Below the pieces are notes generated by a model. It was given only the letters and a program-made list of their open reading frames with translations, was not told where the DNA came from and did not search any database. Source: Gemmatimonadota bacterium (GTDB lineage: Bacteria > Gemmatimonadota > Gemmatimonadetes > Gemmatimonadales > Gemmatimonadaceae). From it: 37,215 nt of DNA. The stretch spans positions 1 through 37,215 of the forward strand of contig JAQBQB010000015.1 in assembly GCA_028287235.1 (NCBI GenBank), in the 5' to 3' direction. Shown here piece after piece: positions 8,767 to 27,498 of the stretch; position 1 is the first letter of the stretch, and each line of letters opens with the position of its first letter. A program made the position numbers and the translations under genes.

Positions 8767-10120
8767 TCCCTACCGCGATCGGCGTCCTCCCTACTCGGAG
8801 GACGCCGAGCAAGCGGTGTTGTCGGCAATGTTGATCGACCAAGACGCGGTGCTCCGCGCGGCCGAACACGTCAACGACACGATGTTCTATGCCGAACGCC
8901 ATCGCCGGATTTACCGCGCGATGATGACGATCACGGAGCGCGGCGGTGTCGTCGATCCGCTCACGCTCTCCGAGGAGCTCAGCCGGCGCGGCGAGCTCGA
9001 CGCGTCGGGCGGCAAGGACTTCATCGGCTTCCTCGTCGACGCGGTGCCGACGGCGGCCAACATCGAGTATCACGCGCAGATCGTGCGCGAGAAGGCGATC
9101 CTCCGCCGGCTCATCGAAGTCTCGACGACCATCGTCGCCGAGGCGTTCGAGGGAAAGAGCACCGCCAACGAGCTGCTGGATGAAGCCGAGTCGAAGATCT
9201 TCCAGGTCAGCCAGCAGCAGACCAAGGACGGCTTCACGCGCATCAAGGAGCTGCTCTGGCCCACGATGGAGCGCATTGAAGCGCTGCAGCGCGGCGGGCA
9301 GACGATCACCGGCGTCGCGACCGGCTTCAAGGATCTCGACGAGATGACGTCGGGCTTCCAGCCGGCGGATCTCATCATCGTGGCGGCTCGACCGTCGATG
9401 GGGAAAACGGCGTTCACGCTGAACATCGCGCAACACGCGGCCATCGAGCACAATGTTCCGGTTGCGTTCTTCTCGCTGGAAATGAGTAAAGAGTCGCTCG
9501 TGCAACGCATGCTCACCTCCGAGGCGCGCATCGACGCGCAGCGACTTCGCAAAGGCATGCTGCGGGACGACGACTTCCCGCGGCTCGCCCGCGCCGCCGG
9601 CATCCTCAGCTCGGCGCCGGTCTGGATCGACGACACGCCGGGCATCTCGATCCTCGAGATGCGCTCGAAGGCCCGGCGCCTGAAGGCCGACGCGGGCGTG
9701 GGAATGGTCATCGTCGACTACCTGCAACTCATGTCGGGCCCGGCGAGCTCGGAGAACCGCCAGCAGGAAGTCAGTCAGATCTCCCGCGGGCTGAAAGCGC
9801 TCGCCAAGGAGCTCAGCGTTCCGGTGGTCGCGCTGTCGCAGCTCTCGCGCGCACCTGAGCAGCGCACCGGCGACAACAAGCGTCCGCAGCTCTCCGACCT
9901 TCGTGAATCGGGGGCCATCGAGCAGGACGCCGACTTGATCATGTTCCTCTACCGCCAGGAGTTCTACGACGGCCCGGTAGACAAAGATGGCAATTCGCTC
10001 GAAGGAAAAGCCGAGGTGATCGTCGGCAAGCAGCGAAATGGTCCGATCGGCATCGTGAATCTCCATTTCCATAAGCAATACACGCGGTTCGAGAGCTTCA
10101 GTCAGAGGCCGCAGGGCTGA
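8714..10120 (+). CDS. dnaB: Replicative DNA helicase DnaB
   Basis: Hexameric 5'-3' helicase that unwinds DNA at the replication fork, loaded at oriC and contacting primase. It is 468 residues long. The N-terminal primase-interacting domain opens with PPYSEDAEQAVLSAML. The RecA-like motor has Walker A ARPSMGKT (225-232), Walker B VIVDYLQLM (from about 332) and a downstream LSQLSRAPEQR arginine-rich motif. The first ATG in frame lies 53 bases inside the glycosylase gene, and there is no other start before the conserved N-terminus, so a real overlap is the simplest reading. No intein is present. A large palindromic element follows. Confidence 0.97.
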   Translation: MSSSPVEYSIAPQSLARDPYRDRRPPYSEDAEQAVLSAMLIDQDAVLRAAEHVNDTMFYAERHRRIYRAMMTITERGGVVDPLTLSEELSRRGELDASGGKDFIGFLVDAVPTAANIEYHAQIVREKAILRRLIEVSTTIVAEAFEGKSTANELLDEAESKIFQVSQQQTKDGFTRIKELLWPTMERIEALQRGGQTITGVATGFKDLDEMTSGFQPADLIIVAARPSMGKTAFTLNIAQHAAIEHNVPVAFFSLEMSKESLVQRMLTSEARIDAQRLRKGMLRDDDFPRLARAAGILSSAPVWIDDTPGISILEMRSKARRLKADAGVGMVIVDYLQLMSGPASSENRQQEVSQISRGLKALAKELSVPVVALSQLSRAPEQRTGDNKRPQLSDLRESGAIEQDADLIMFLYRQEFYDGPVDKDGNSLEGKAEVIVGKQRNGPIGIVNLHFHKQYTRFESFSQRPQG

Positions 10121-10129
10121 GAGCTCGAT

Positions 10130-10448
10130 GGCGACGGGCCGCTCTATCGGGACGACTCCGTCATTTTGCTCACGGATGACGCGGATGACGTCGATGACGC
10201 GGAAAAATCCGGATCGCTCCGTGTGGCGAGACAGCGCCATCGCGCAGCGCCGGGATATTTTTCTAGGAACGGACGCTCGGGACGCCGCCGGTAGCATCCC
10301 CGAGCGTCGGTTCCAAAGAAAAACGTGTTCGTCCGGGCTCGTTGCGTACGGAATCGTCAATGCGCACGGAGAGATCCGGCCCTTTCCGCACCATCCGCGT
10401 CATCCGTGTGAAAATGACGGAGTCGTCCCGGTAGAGCGGCCAGTCAAG
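10130..10448. repeat. Long imperfect palindrome (MITE-like) between dnaB and radA
   Basis: This gene-free stretch of about 350 bp is almost wholly one inverted repeat. The outer arms 10137-10167 and 10411-10441 are complementary at 30 of 31 positions, and the mismatch would be a U-G pair in RNA. The complementarity continues inward more weakly: CACGGATGACGCGGATG on the left pairs with the matching part of 10388-10407, and CTCCGTG with CACGGAG. The centre is a second hairpin, 10266-10281 with 10299-10314, 16 bp with one mismatch, flanked by TTTTTCT/AGAAAAA. The left arm also holds three 9-base units GATGACG-NN near 10174-10200. No transposase or clear target duplication is seen. Confidence 0.8.
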
Positions 10449-10474
10449 GTACCAACTCCAAGCCCCCATCTCTT

Positions 10475-11872
10475 TTGAAGACCAAGACCGTCTACCGCTG
10501 CACGGAATGCGGATCGGACTTTTCGAAATGGCAAGGCCGTTGCGACACCTGCGGCGAGTGGAACACGCTCGTCGAGGAGACGGTCGCGCCCAAGGTGAGC
10601 GTGGGCTCCGGCGGCGGTGCCGCGCGGCGCATCGGCGGCGCCCGCTCGTTGGCCGACGGTGGGAACGTCGTGGCCACGCCCAAGCTGCGCGACGTCAAAG
10701 GCTCCGACGCGAAACGCTGGAAGACCGGTCTCGACGAATTCGATTTCGTCCTCGGCGGCGGCATCGTGCCGGGCTCGATGATCCTCATCGGCGGTGAGCC
10801 GGGCATCGGCAAGTCGACGCTGCTGCTTCAGGTCGCCGCGCGCCTCGAAGCCGCCGGGTTCGCGACTCTCTACGCGTCGGGCGAAGAATCGCCGCTCCAG
10901 ATCAAGCTGCGCTCCGATCGCCTCGCGGCGAGCGCCGCCGAAGTGTCGCTGCTCAGCGAGACGAACCTCGAGACAATTCTCACGACGTCCGCGTCCGTGG
11001 CGCCATCGGTGTTGATCGTCGACTCGATTCAGACGGTGTACACGGGCGATCTCGAGGGCGCGCCCGGGAACGTGGGCCAGGTGCGCGAGTGCGCCGCGCG
11101 GCTGATGCGCTATGCGAAGGAGAGCGGCACCACGGTGTTCGTCGTCGGGCATGTGACCAAGGGCGGCGGCATCGCGGGACCGAAGACACTCGAGCACATC
11201 GTCGACACGGTGCTCTACTTCGAGGGCGAGAGCACGCTCGACCACCGCGTGCTGCGCGCGACGAAGAATCGCTTCGGCAGCGTCGACGAGATCGGCGTGT
11301 TCCGCATGTCGGAGCAGGGGCTCGAGCCGGTGGCGAATCCGTCCGAGCTGTTCATGGGCGATCGCGCGAGCCATGCGTCGGGCAGCGCGGTCACCGCGCT
11401 GCTCGAGGGCACGCGGCCGTTGCTCGTCGAGATCCAGGCGCTCGCGGCCAAGGCGGGGTTCGGGACGCCGCAGCGCGTGGCCACCGGGTTCGACGGCCGC
11501 CGCCTCGCGCTGCTGCTCGCGGTGCTCGACAAGCGCGCCGGATTGAACTTCAGCCAGCTCGACGTCTTTCTCAACGTGGTCGGCGGCATGCGGCTGCAAG
11601 AACCTGGCGGCGATCTCGCCGTCGCCGCGGCGCTCGCGTCGAGCGTCTACGATCGTGCGCTGCCGGCCGATGCGCTGTTCATCGGCGAGGTGGGCCTCGG
11701 CGGGGAAGTGCGCACCGTGTCGCAGGTCGAGCGGCGCGTCGCCGAGGCGGCGAACATGGGGATGAAGCGCGTCTACCTGGCCGAGCGCGGAGTGCCGAAG
11801 CGGAAGAGCCGCGACGTCGAGCTCGTGGGCGTGCGGACGATTCAAGATCTCTTACGCCGCATCTTCACGTGA
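10475..11872 (+). CDS. radA: DNA repair protein RadA (Sms)
   Basis: RecA-like branch-migration ATPase that promotes recombination-intermediate processing. It is 465 residues long. The N-terminal zinc finger has C9, C12, C23 and C26. Walker A is GGEPGIGKST (about 106-115), the RadA-specific KNRFGS motif is near 264-269, and the C-terminal Lon-like domain (about 285-465) holds the GGDLAVAAALASS stretch. The only start that keeps the zinc finger intact is TTG at 10475. It lacks a strong Shine-Dalgarno and sits 34 bases after the right arm of the palindromic element, so that element probably supplies the 5' leader. The gene overlaps ispD by 4 bases (GTGA). Confidence 0.96.
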   Translation: MKTKTVYRCTECGSDFSKWQGRCDTCGEWNTLVEETVAPKVSVGSGGGAARRIGGARSLADGGNVVATPKLRDVKGSDAKRWKTGLDEFDFVLGGGIVPGSMILIGGEPGIGKSTLLLQVAARLEAAGFATLYASGEESPLQIKLRSDRLAASAAEVSLLSETNLETILTTSASVAPSVLIVDSIQTVYTGDLEGAPGNVGQVRECAARLMRYAKESGTTVFVVGHVTKGGGIAGPKTLEHIVDTVLYFEGESTLDHRVLRATKNRFGSVDEIGVFRMSEQGLEPVANPSELFMGDRASHASGSAVTALLEGTRPLLVEIQALAAKAGFGTPQRVATGFDGRRLALLLAVLDKRAGLNFSQLDVFLNVVGGMRLQEPGGDLAVAAALASSVYDRALPADALFIGEVGLGGEVRTVSQVERRVAEAANMGMKRVYLAERGVPKRKSRDVELVGVRTIQDLLRRIFT

Positions 11873-22236: not shown

Positions 22237-23166
22237 ATGGTCAACAAAATCACGGTGGTCGGCGCGGGCAATGTCGGCGCGACGACCGCCCAGCGTGTGG
22301 CGGAAAAGGAACTCGCGCGGACCGTCGTGATGGTCGACGTCGTCGAGGGGATTCCGCAGGGCAAAGCCCTCGATCAATGGCAGTCGGCGCCGATCGAAGG
22401 CTTCGACTCGCGGGTCATCGGCACCAACGGCTACGACGAGACGGCCGGGTCCGACATCGTCATCATCACGGCCGGCATCGCGCGCAAACCCGGCATGTCG
22501 CGCGACGACCTGCTCAATACCAATGCCGGGATCGTCAAGTCGGTCGCCGAGCAGATCAAGCAGACGTCGCCCGACGCGATCCTCATCATCGTGTCGAACC
22601 CGCTCGACGTGATGTGCTACGTCGCGAAGCAGGTTTCCGGCTTCCCGCGCGAGCGCGTGCTCGGCATGGCCGGCGTGCTCGACACCGCGCGCTACCGCGC
22701 GTTCCTCGCCGAAGCGCTCGACGTCTCCGTGCGCGACATCCAGGCGATGGTGCTCGGCGGCCACGGCGACACGATGGTTCCGCTGATCTCCTACACGAGC
22801 GTGAGCGGCATTCCGATCACGCAGCTCATGGACAAGGCCAAGCTCGACGCGATCGTCGATCGCACCCGCAGCGGCGGCGCCGAGATCGTGAAGCATCTCA
22901 AGACCGGCTCGGCGTACTACGCGCCGTCGGCGGGCGCGGTGCAGATGGCGGAAGCGATCGTCAACGACCAGCGCCGCATTTTGCCGTGCGCGGCGTGGCT
23001 GCAGGGCGAGTACGGCATGAAGGATCTGTTCTTGGGCGTTCCGTGCAAGCTCGGGAAGGGTGGATTGCAGAAGGTGATTGAAGTCGAGCTGACGGCCGAC
23101 GAGCGCGCGGCACTCGCGAAGAGCGCCGAAGCGGTGCGCGAGCCGATGGCCGCGGTCAAACTGTAA
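22237..23166 (+). CDS. mdh: Malate dehydrogenase, LDH-like type
   Basis: Oxidises malate to oxaloacetate with NAD. It is 309 residues long. The Rossmann motif is [10 protein letters not shown] (7-16), with D34 at the end of the second strand, the usual NAD choice. Malate specificity is shown by R83 and R89 in ARKPGMSR; lactate dehydrogenases have Gln at the first. The catalytic pair is D149 and H176 (GGHGDTMVP), with R152 for substrate. The protein belongs to the lactate-dehydrogenase-like tetrameric MDH group rather than the E. coli dimeric type. The ATG was chosen because the conserved [11 protein letters not shown] begins there. Confidence 0.96.
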
Positions 23167-23170
23167 GCGC

Positions 23171-23293
23171 AGGGTTTAGGGTATGGGGTTCAGGGTCTAG
23201 GGAAGGAACGCGGCGTTTTCGCGCCGCTCATATGAGCGCGGGCTTCGCCCGCGCACACCTTCCCGAAACTCGATCCCCGAGACCCCAAGCCCT
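23171..23293. repeat. Structured intergenic element, copy 1: G-quadruplex-type arms around two hairpins
   Basis: Fills the 138 bp gap between mdh and sdhC. The left arm 23171-23206 has five runs of three or four G spaced by 3-4 bases (AGGGTTTAGGG type). The right arm 23258-23293 is its imperfect reverse complement, 25 of 36 positions, with four C runs. Between them: hairpin A 23210-23227 (GCGGCG/CGCCGC), the palindrome CTCATATGAG, and hairpin B 23236-23254 (GCGCGGGC-TTC-GCCCGCGC) followed by ACACC. Copy 2 at 27319-27498 has the same order of parts. Confidence 0.75.
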
Positions 23294-23304
23294 CCGATTT
23301 TTCA

Positions 23305-23988
23305 ATGAATTCTCTCGTCGCGTTCTACCGATCGACGATCGGCAAGAAGATCTTGATGGCGGTGTCGGGGCTGATCGGCATCGGCTTCGTGATCCTGCAC
23401 ATGGCCGGCAACCTCCAGGTGTTCATCGGCCAGAACAAGATCAACAGTTACGGCGCGATGTTGCATGGGCCGCTGGCCGAAGTAACCTGGCTGCTGCGCC
23501 TCGTGTTGATCGTCGCCGTGATCGTGCACGTGCTGATGGCGTACCAGTTGACGCAGCGATCGGCCGCCGCGCGCCCGATCGACTATCAGCACCGCAGCCC
23601 GCAGGTCTCGACGCTCGCGTCGCGGACGATGAAGTGGGGTGGAATCCTGCTGCTCGTCTTCATCGTCGTTCACATTCTGCACTTCACCACCGAAGCGATC
23701 GATCCAGCCGGTTGGCGCGGCATGACCGACTCGCAGGGACATCGCGACGTCTACGGCAACATCGTCGCGAGCTTCCGCATCTGGTGGGTCGCGCTCTTCT
23801 ACATCGTCGCCATGCTCGCCCTCGGGCTGCACCTGTACCACGGCGCCTGGGCGTCCGTGCGCACGCTCGGGTTCGCGAAACCCTCGCCCCATCCGCTGCA
23901 CCGCCGCATCGCGCTGGTCGTCGCCGCGATCGTCTGGCTCGGATTCACGCTCGTTCCTGTCGGCGTCATCGCCGGCATCATTCGATAG
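23305..23988 (+). CDS. sdhC: Succinate dehydrogenase cytochrome b subunit (b558 family)
   Basis: Single membrane anchor that holds heme b and connects SdhAB to the quinone pool in the inner membrane. It is 227 residues long with five predicted helices at about 13-33, 60-80, 111-130, 160-180 and 203-225, the pattern of the diheme b558 family (Bacillus, Bacteroides, Wolinella). Histidines in the helices at H32, H75, H123 and H176 fit axial ligands of two hemes. No separate sdhD exists here, as expected for this type. sdhA begins 3 bp after the stop. Confidence 0.9.
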   Translation: MNSLVAFYRSTIGKKILMAVSGLIGIGFVILHMAGNLQVFIGQNKINSYGAMLHGPLAEVTWLLRLVLIVAVIVHVLMAYQLTQRSAAARPIDYQHRSPQVSTLASRTMKWGGILLLVFIVVHILHFTTEAIDPAGWRGMTDSQGHRDVYGNIVASFRIWWVALFYIVAMLALGLHLYHGAWASVRTLGFAKPSPHPLHRRIALVVAAIVWLGFTLVPVGVIAGIIR

Positions 23989-26689: not shown

Positions 26690-26740
26690 CAGATGGACTG
26701 CGACAGTTCGGCGCGCCGAACTGTCGAGGTTCATCTGTCA
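26687..26740. terminator. Nested palindrome between convergent sdhB and dcd
   Basis: A perfect 26-base palindrome (26701-26726, CGACAGTTCGGCG and its complement) is flanked by 9 bp arms TGACAGATG (26687-26695) and CATCTGTCA (26732-26740), separated by 5-base internal loops. It spans the sdhB stop and ends 14 bases before the dcd stop, in a tail-to-tail position. It is likely a two-way terminator or mRNA 3'-end stabiliser; no T-run is visible on the + strand. Confidence 0.7.
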
Positions 26741-26754
26741 CTCAACACCGGTTC

Positions 26755-27309: not shown

Positions 27310-27318
27310 AAGGCAGTT

Positions 27319-27498
27319 CTAGGGTGTAGGGTCGAGGGTATGGGGCAGGTACGTGGCGCTGCGCGCCACTTGGTCGAGCATCGGACTGGAGCGGCGGGAA
27401 GGTATCTGTTTCGCGGCCTTGGGCCAAGCATCACATCAGAGCGCGCGCGTCGCGCGCGCACACCTTCCCTCGACCCTCAACCCGAAACCCTGGACCCT
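27319..27498. repeat. Structured intergenic element, copy 2: G-quadruplex-type arms around two hairpins
   Basis: Occupies most of the 273 bp gap between divergent dcd and nuoA. The left arm 27319-27349 has four G runs with 3-4 base loops, and the right arm 27463-27498 has five C runs with 4-base loops, so each strand can in principle form a G-quadruplex. Hairpin A is 27353-27369 (GTGGCG/CGCCAC). Hairpin B is 27441-27459 (19 bases of alternating GC around a T), followed by CACACCTTCCC as in copy 1. About 60 extra bases lie between the hairpins (27370-27430). Confidence 0.7.

Follow-up and report, generated by a model that had tools for sequence, protein, structure and literature searches.

An intergenic element with inverted heptad arrays in a Gemmatimonadaceae genome, and its association with an IVP gene

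To our knowledge, heptamer tandem repeats in the gaps between bacterial genes and free-standing IVP genes have each gone unexplained for decades. Among the former, the G-quadruplex (G4) heptad repeats of Xanthomonas and Nostoc, with units GGGNATC and GGGGA(C/T)T, were described as having, in general, no tie to mobile elements, and a link to IVP was not reported (Rehm et al. 2015, PMC4692102). Lineage-specific intergenic heptamer arrays are also represented by the STRRs of cyanobacteria and the TAACTGA repeats of Beggiatoaceae; in those parts of PMC4679880 on which we draw, the origin of these arrays is unexplained and a repeat-binding protein is speculated to be the mobile part. IVP homologues, for their part, include the S23 proteins of 23S rRNA intervening sequences (IVSs) and Avd of DGRs, which works with a reverse transcriptase (PMC10053308). 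In the 23S rRNA IVS of Coxiella burnetii, tandem heptads (GACAGAT) lie upstream of the S23/IVP ORF, and RNase III cuts within the terminal stem (PMC4990558).

Here we describe an element that resembles each of these systems in part. It lies in a window of 37,215 nucleotides (the whole stretch of DNA that was analysed) from a Gemmatimonadaceae genome, G000, in the 138-bp gap between the TAA stop codon of mdh at 23164-23166 and the ATG of sdhC at 23305, both genes having been named in a preliminary description from sequence alone. The element, copy 1, spans 23171-23293 and reads as a G-rich array, a box, hairpin A, a centre, hairpin B, a second box and a C-rich array:

23171..23199, + strand: G-rich heptad arm AGGGTTTAGGGTATGGGGTTCAGGGTCTA, four units of GGGTNTA with four G tracts
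23200..23206, + strand: GGGAAGG box, common to family members, pairing with CCTTCCC
23210..23227, + strand: hairpin A, from the RNA fold; equivalent stems elsewhere exchange T-A for C-G
23228..23235, no strand: palindromic centre TCATATGA
23236..23254, + strand: hairpin B, GCGCGGGC TTC GCCCGCGC, from sequence and fold
23258..23264, - strand: CCTTCCC box, which is GGGAAGG on the other strand
23265..23293, - strand: C-rich heptad arm, G-rich on the - strand

Hairpin B is followed, ahead of the C-rich arm, by ACACCTTCCC. The sequence and coordinates are as the preliminary description gave them, and the arms that it took to be of G-quadruplex type score accordingly by a G4Hunter-type measure (+1.46 for the left arm, -1.37 for the right). 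The opposition of the arms that it noted is present, with the correction that they are inverted copies of each other. Copy 1 is a single long imperfect inverted repeat enclosing two hairpins, and its predicted RNA is Y-shaped, with an imperfect outer stem formed by the arms, a GGGAAGG/CCUUCCC stem and the two hairpins. An Rfam scan of the window returned 0 matches at the gathering score.

In several respects the arms are like those of the Xanthomonas and Nostoc G4 heptads: a G tract with one variable base, about four units, an intergenic position at gene ends, convergent inverted pairs, which are often seen there too, and G tracts that are intact in the G000 copies. They differ in their unit, GGGTNTA, and in the hairpins and GGGAAGG box that lie between the arms. 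As in the Coxiella IVS, the terminal inverted repeats hold tandem heptads. That no named repeat has this form, as was first thought, holds for the sequence and not for the shape, which the Xanthomonas GGGNATC repeats and the Coxiella IVS match.

The second copy reported nearby is real. It occupies 27314-27498, has the part order of copy 1 with an additional internal GGGAAGG segment, and shares the arms, hairpin B and ACACCTTCCC with it:

27321..27349, + strand: G-rich heptad arm
27353..27369, + strand: hairpin adjoining the left arm, from sequence and fold
27396..27469, no strand: inner segment from GGGAAGG to CCTTCCC, with hairpin B
27470..27498, - strand: C-rich heptad arm

Neither copy contains an IVP ORF. 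In most other members of the family the centre is a longer, leader-like segment in place of the palindrome of copy 1. Elsewhere in the window, a strong palindrome, CAGATGGACTGCGACAGTTCGGCGCGCCGAACTGTCGAGGTTCATCTG, at 26690-26743, 3' of the sdh genes and ahead of the next, reverse gene, is perhaps a bidirectional terminator.

Both copies belong to a family dispersed through the source genome. The arm pattern AGGGTNTAGGGTNTNGGGTNTAGGG, searched over the 5.73-Mb genome with up to three mismatches, gave 90 + 84 matches and its reversed control gave 0, so copies are far above chance. A catalogue drawn from genome stretches holds at least 44 paired elements in addition to single-arm and degenerate ones, about 50 sites in all. 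On each strand the G-rich strand of paired elements sits 5', and the arms lie only 0-160 bp apart in the paired copies found, the single longer copy being one that holds an IVP gene. Of the 16 elements in a 714-kb sample, 15 overlap predicted genes by no more than 7%, though 90% of the DNA was called coding by a crude gene caller that placed sdhC on the wrong strand; most lie within about 13 nt of a predicted gene end. (An automatic inverted-array finder with strict thresholds returned two clear pairs in 277 kb and is not relied on.) Three types of element half, alpha, beta1 and beta2, can be told apart, and they are mostly joined as alpha plus beta, in a mosaic reminiscent of BIMEs. At one site (L020, G000:C23:502003-502213) a complete element runs straight into an additional arm that has a GGGAAGGTGTGCCC box of its own, which gives the look of two joined insertions.

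The family is lineage-specific. With up to two mismatches allowed, the arm pattern does not occur in two congeneric genomes, G003 and G004 (99% complete), and almost all of the 200 genomes searched in the phylum lack it as well, just four others having any. At the orthologous mdh-sdhC site G001 reads TAA-CGGCAC-ATG, and the gap is about 2 nt in G004 and about 29 nt in G005; these three have no element, and G003 has a different inverted array element, AGGTTGGAGGTTGGACGCTGGAGATTGG...CCAATCTCTAATTTCCATTCTCTAATCTCC. Since G003 and G004 lack the arm unit and the gaps of relatives are short or differently filled, copy 1 is a dispersed, lineage-specific insertion. The site of copy 2 likewise holds GGGCGAT arrays in G004, GAGAGGA arrays in G001 and other short repeats in G005. 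The same gaps hold different repeat families in different species; G001 and G005 seem to share some of the sequence between arrays, which leaves separate insertions and replacement of arms as alternatives. Aligned genes of the relatives are about 72-88% identical, too diverged for a target-site duplication to be read in the flanks. Of the three identities first proposed, the mobile palindromic repeat is supported by these data, with its roughly 50 dispersed intergenic sites, a burst at the level of the lineage, and sites that in relatives are empty or hold something else. Apart from this family, another long inverted structure at 10098-10477 of the window has GATGACGCG-type short repeats on both sides, and in G004 and G005 the inverted repeats of that gap are different ones.

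The element may also act as either of the other two proposed, an mRNA-end structure or a structured RNA, but neither is its primary identity, because copies sit by unrelated genes. Taken as a transcript-end element, that is, a bidirectional terminator or a BIME-like mRNA-stabilising hairpin between operon genes, copy 1 would offer strong hairpins (RNA fold energy -76.6 kcal/mol) and a run of five T 3' of its C-rich arm. Most copies, however, have no T run 3' of the stem, and the gap of copy 1, about 2-29 nt in three relatives, is likely internal to an operon in which termination would cut off sdh. We consider this explanation quite unlikely.

Variation among the source-genome copies indicates which parts are constrained. 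Positions in the G tracts have a pairwise identity of 0.90-0.92 and the hairpin stems are nearly invariant, whereas the spacer base of GGGTNTA, at 0.34-0.39, is near random. Of 16 distinct sequences of the alpha stem, 4 have C-G in place of a T-A pair, and 96% of cells are paired; this one covarying pair gives modest support to the idea that hairpin pairing is kept. Further support comes from paired changes of length in the beta stems and from a few copies whose stems are different throughout. The arms behave otherwise. In a test that permuted alpha arms only against beta arms, the two arms of an element agreed less than expected at variable positions (0.209 vs 0.327, p=0.0024); their duplex was also weaker than that of permuted partners (-35.7 vs -38.0 kcal/mol, p=0.0016), these tests having been picked after the data were viewed, which makes the p values indicative; at the base before the third G run the arms of one element agree in 0 of 23 cases. 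Compensatory change, proposed at the outset as one test, is found in the hairpin stem and not in the arms, which are less complementary within elements than between them. The outer arms as a compensating stem are contradicted by this lower agreement and weaker duplex, and the mismatches suggest either that perfect palindromes are removed or that the arms act singly.

The one long copy, C12:108082-108659, has between its arms a gene of PF05635 (23S_rRNA_IVP; TIGR02436, 'four helix bundle protein'), the best solved relative of which is Xcc0516 (PDB 2GSC). Its arm, GGGGAGG box, hairpin and leader CTTGATGGATGGACTGTGAAAG align with the short copies, the leader matching that of one short copy at 20/22 positions (score 34; maximum 22 in 5000 shuffles). 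The sequence of its hairpin and its left end differ from theirs, and its other end matches beta2 halves over 8 bases, a weak likeness (p=0.016 against shuffles) that we do not count as evidence. AGGG arms flank this IVP gene and no other in the source genome. With an IVP/S23 ORF within terminal inverted repeats and a predicted RNA stem, the full form is built like a 23S rRNA IVS; in contrast to one, the family numbers tens of copies, which lie between protein genes and for the most part lack the ORF. Arrays of another style, inverted short repeats of CTCGAGCC and GCTCGCTGC type, flank two further IVP genes of this genome (L131 and L132), and a separate IVP relative, SIRDLKVWQEAVALA... (L134, L154, L158), is kept in three same-genus genomes with most sides bare of clear arrays; it is perhaps a domesticated copy.

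The family also recalls REP/BIME sequences and their RAYT, with short dispersed intergenic hairpin units, inverted pairs, mosaic alpha, beta1 and beta2 halves, and a resident protein gene flanked by matching ends. Unlike them, it has IVP as its companion protein and heptad arrays as its ends, in a genome without a Y1 transposase: a PF01797 (Y1_Tnp) search of G000 gave 0 matches, with control matches in five genomes, which rules out a RAYT as partner. A reverse transcriptase was considered as well. IVP is of a family homologous to the DGR protein Avd (weak match to NF033474, E=4e-6, for the IVP of L142). Unlike the situation of Avd, neither a reverse transcriptase nor a template repeat was seen next to the gene here; the only RVT_1 gene of G000, of unassigned type and encoding 530 aa (L275, G000:C2:6203-6601), lies elsewhere and was not seen near any element.

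Inverted ends, small size, dispersal and end-adjoining hairpins as in REP/IS200-type elements would also suit MITEs derived from an ordinary DDE or HUH transposon, one copy of which carries the IVP gene as a passenger. Set against the full-length partner that a MITE has, the IVP copy has arms, box and leader in common with the short copies but departs from them in its hairpin and other end, and its protein is no known transposase. The missing Y1_Tnp (RAYT/IS200) gene, Y1_Tnp being the one transposase family searched for, counts against a passenger, as does the inter-arm span, which never exceeds 160 bp in the paired copies found save in the longer one that holds IVP, and the association of IVP with arrays recurs across phyla with different units, as would not be expected of a passenger. 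This account we judge very unlikely.

In the genus itself, the genomes have 4-9 IVP genes each, many of them with inverted short arrays of differing unit on their flanks. Scanning an IVP alignment against species genomes gave 80 loci, in many bacterial phyla and some archaea, of which 68 were usable. The best period is 7 in 96/136 of their flanks and in 35/276 distal windows; 73/136 flanks (54%) have a strong period-7/8 array, compared with 12/276 distal windows (Fisher p=2e-30) and 14/259 intergenic controls (5%), all of which are gaps from the source genome's own genus. Sharing of 8-mers between the two flanks is greater in inverted than in direct orientation at 48 loci and the reverse at 14, and in 83/92 cases the upstream array is G-rich or the downstream array C-rich (p=4e-16). 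The 78 arrays comprise at least 58 heptamer classes, and some loci of the survey, such as L134, L154 and L129, have no clear arrays. In Xanthomonas codiaei an IVP gene, with neighbours that by eye resemble accB upstream and accC downstream, is flanked by GGGAATC arrays, GGGATTAGGGAATC.../GAATCCCCAATCCC, which are the repeat of PMC4692102. Several IVP genes of Anabaena sp. UHCC 0204 are also flanked by heptamer arrays; the cyanobacterial STRRs and TAACTGA repeats are likewise lineage-specific intergenic heptamer arrays, and differ in being mostly reported, within the parts of PMC4679880 drawn on here, as direct arrays with no IVP link. In the open literature we found no paper linking IVP genes with intergenic heptad arrays, a scope that takes in few subscription journals and supports no claim to priority.

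Some IVP-flanking units are amplified. TGGGCGN arrays, which flank the IVP gene L142 of G004, number 106 + 135 (241) in that genome, 10 in G000 and 0 in the other four genomes; CGTGGNN arrays, which flank L138 of G003, number 78 + 98 (176) there, 45 + 74 in G000, where they are a second heptad family besides AGGGTNT, and 19 + 26 in G001. Heptad units are lineage-enriched rather than strictly private to a species. Both units were searched because they flank IVP genes, so the counts demonstrate amplification of IVP-flanking units, not an IVP for every amplified unit.

Arms that score as G4 and adjoin gene ends, with their G tracts kept and their spacer base free, are also what host-made regulatory G4 or i-motif sites would look like if selected for expression at gene borders, with IVP genes merely sharing the gaps; Xanthomonas heptads do form G4 in vitro (PMC4692102). 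But the unit differs between congeneric species at the same gap, the neighbour genes are unrelated, the arrays are strongly tied to IVP genes, and many IVP-flanking units, among them GTGGTTA, GTGACAA and GTTTCAA, have no GGG tract. A primarily regulatory origin is therefore unlikely in our judgment.

What we observe is an architecture: the anatomy of the copies, their dispersal in the source genome, the absence of the unit from same-genus genomes, the IVP copy, its shared leader and the pairing of IVP genes with arrays across phyla. We think it probable that the full form of this intergenic element has an IVP gene flanked by inverted arrays of 7-base units, and that copy 1 is one of its gene-less, MITE/REP-like copies. 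On the best reading, the IVP of the full form is a four-helix-bundle, Avd-like protein and the element is the intergenic counterpart of 23S rRNA IVSs. The most economical reading places intergenic IVP elements and 23S IVSs in one class, with copy 1 a gene-less member amplified in trans.

We envision a scenario in which IVP binds the heptad arrays or the hairpins, in the form of DNA or RNA, and works with host enzymes to spread both full and gene-less copies into gaps beside stop and start codons. Its mobilising role would be exerted in trans, much as RAYT acts for REPs; we know of no catalytic activity for IVP, nor of any instance in which transposition has been seen. Once transcribed, the element can fold into the predicted Y with its two hairpins, and in this it would parallel the 23S rRNA IVSs that RNase III cuts. 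The arm mismatches probably let copies persist in operons, either because no perfect palindrome is formed or through escape from RNase III.

More broadly, and more tentatively, IVP genes with inverted heptad arrays could make up a single class of mobile elements, widespread in bacteria and archaea, that spreads under the direction of IVP through its arrays, with the 23S IVSs as one niche and the orphan heptamers of Xanthomonas, cyanobacteria and others as gene-bearing or gene-less remains. The mismatched arms and the one free base per heptad are a direct clue to the features that the protein or the cell recognises. A regular association of IVP genes with lineage-enriched arrays and gene-less derivatives, if true, would give heptamer repeats an origin and IVP a testable function, and would extend the intervening sequences of 23S rRNA to a general class of elements.
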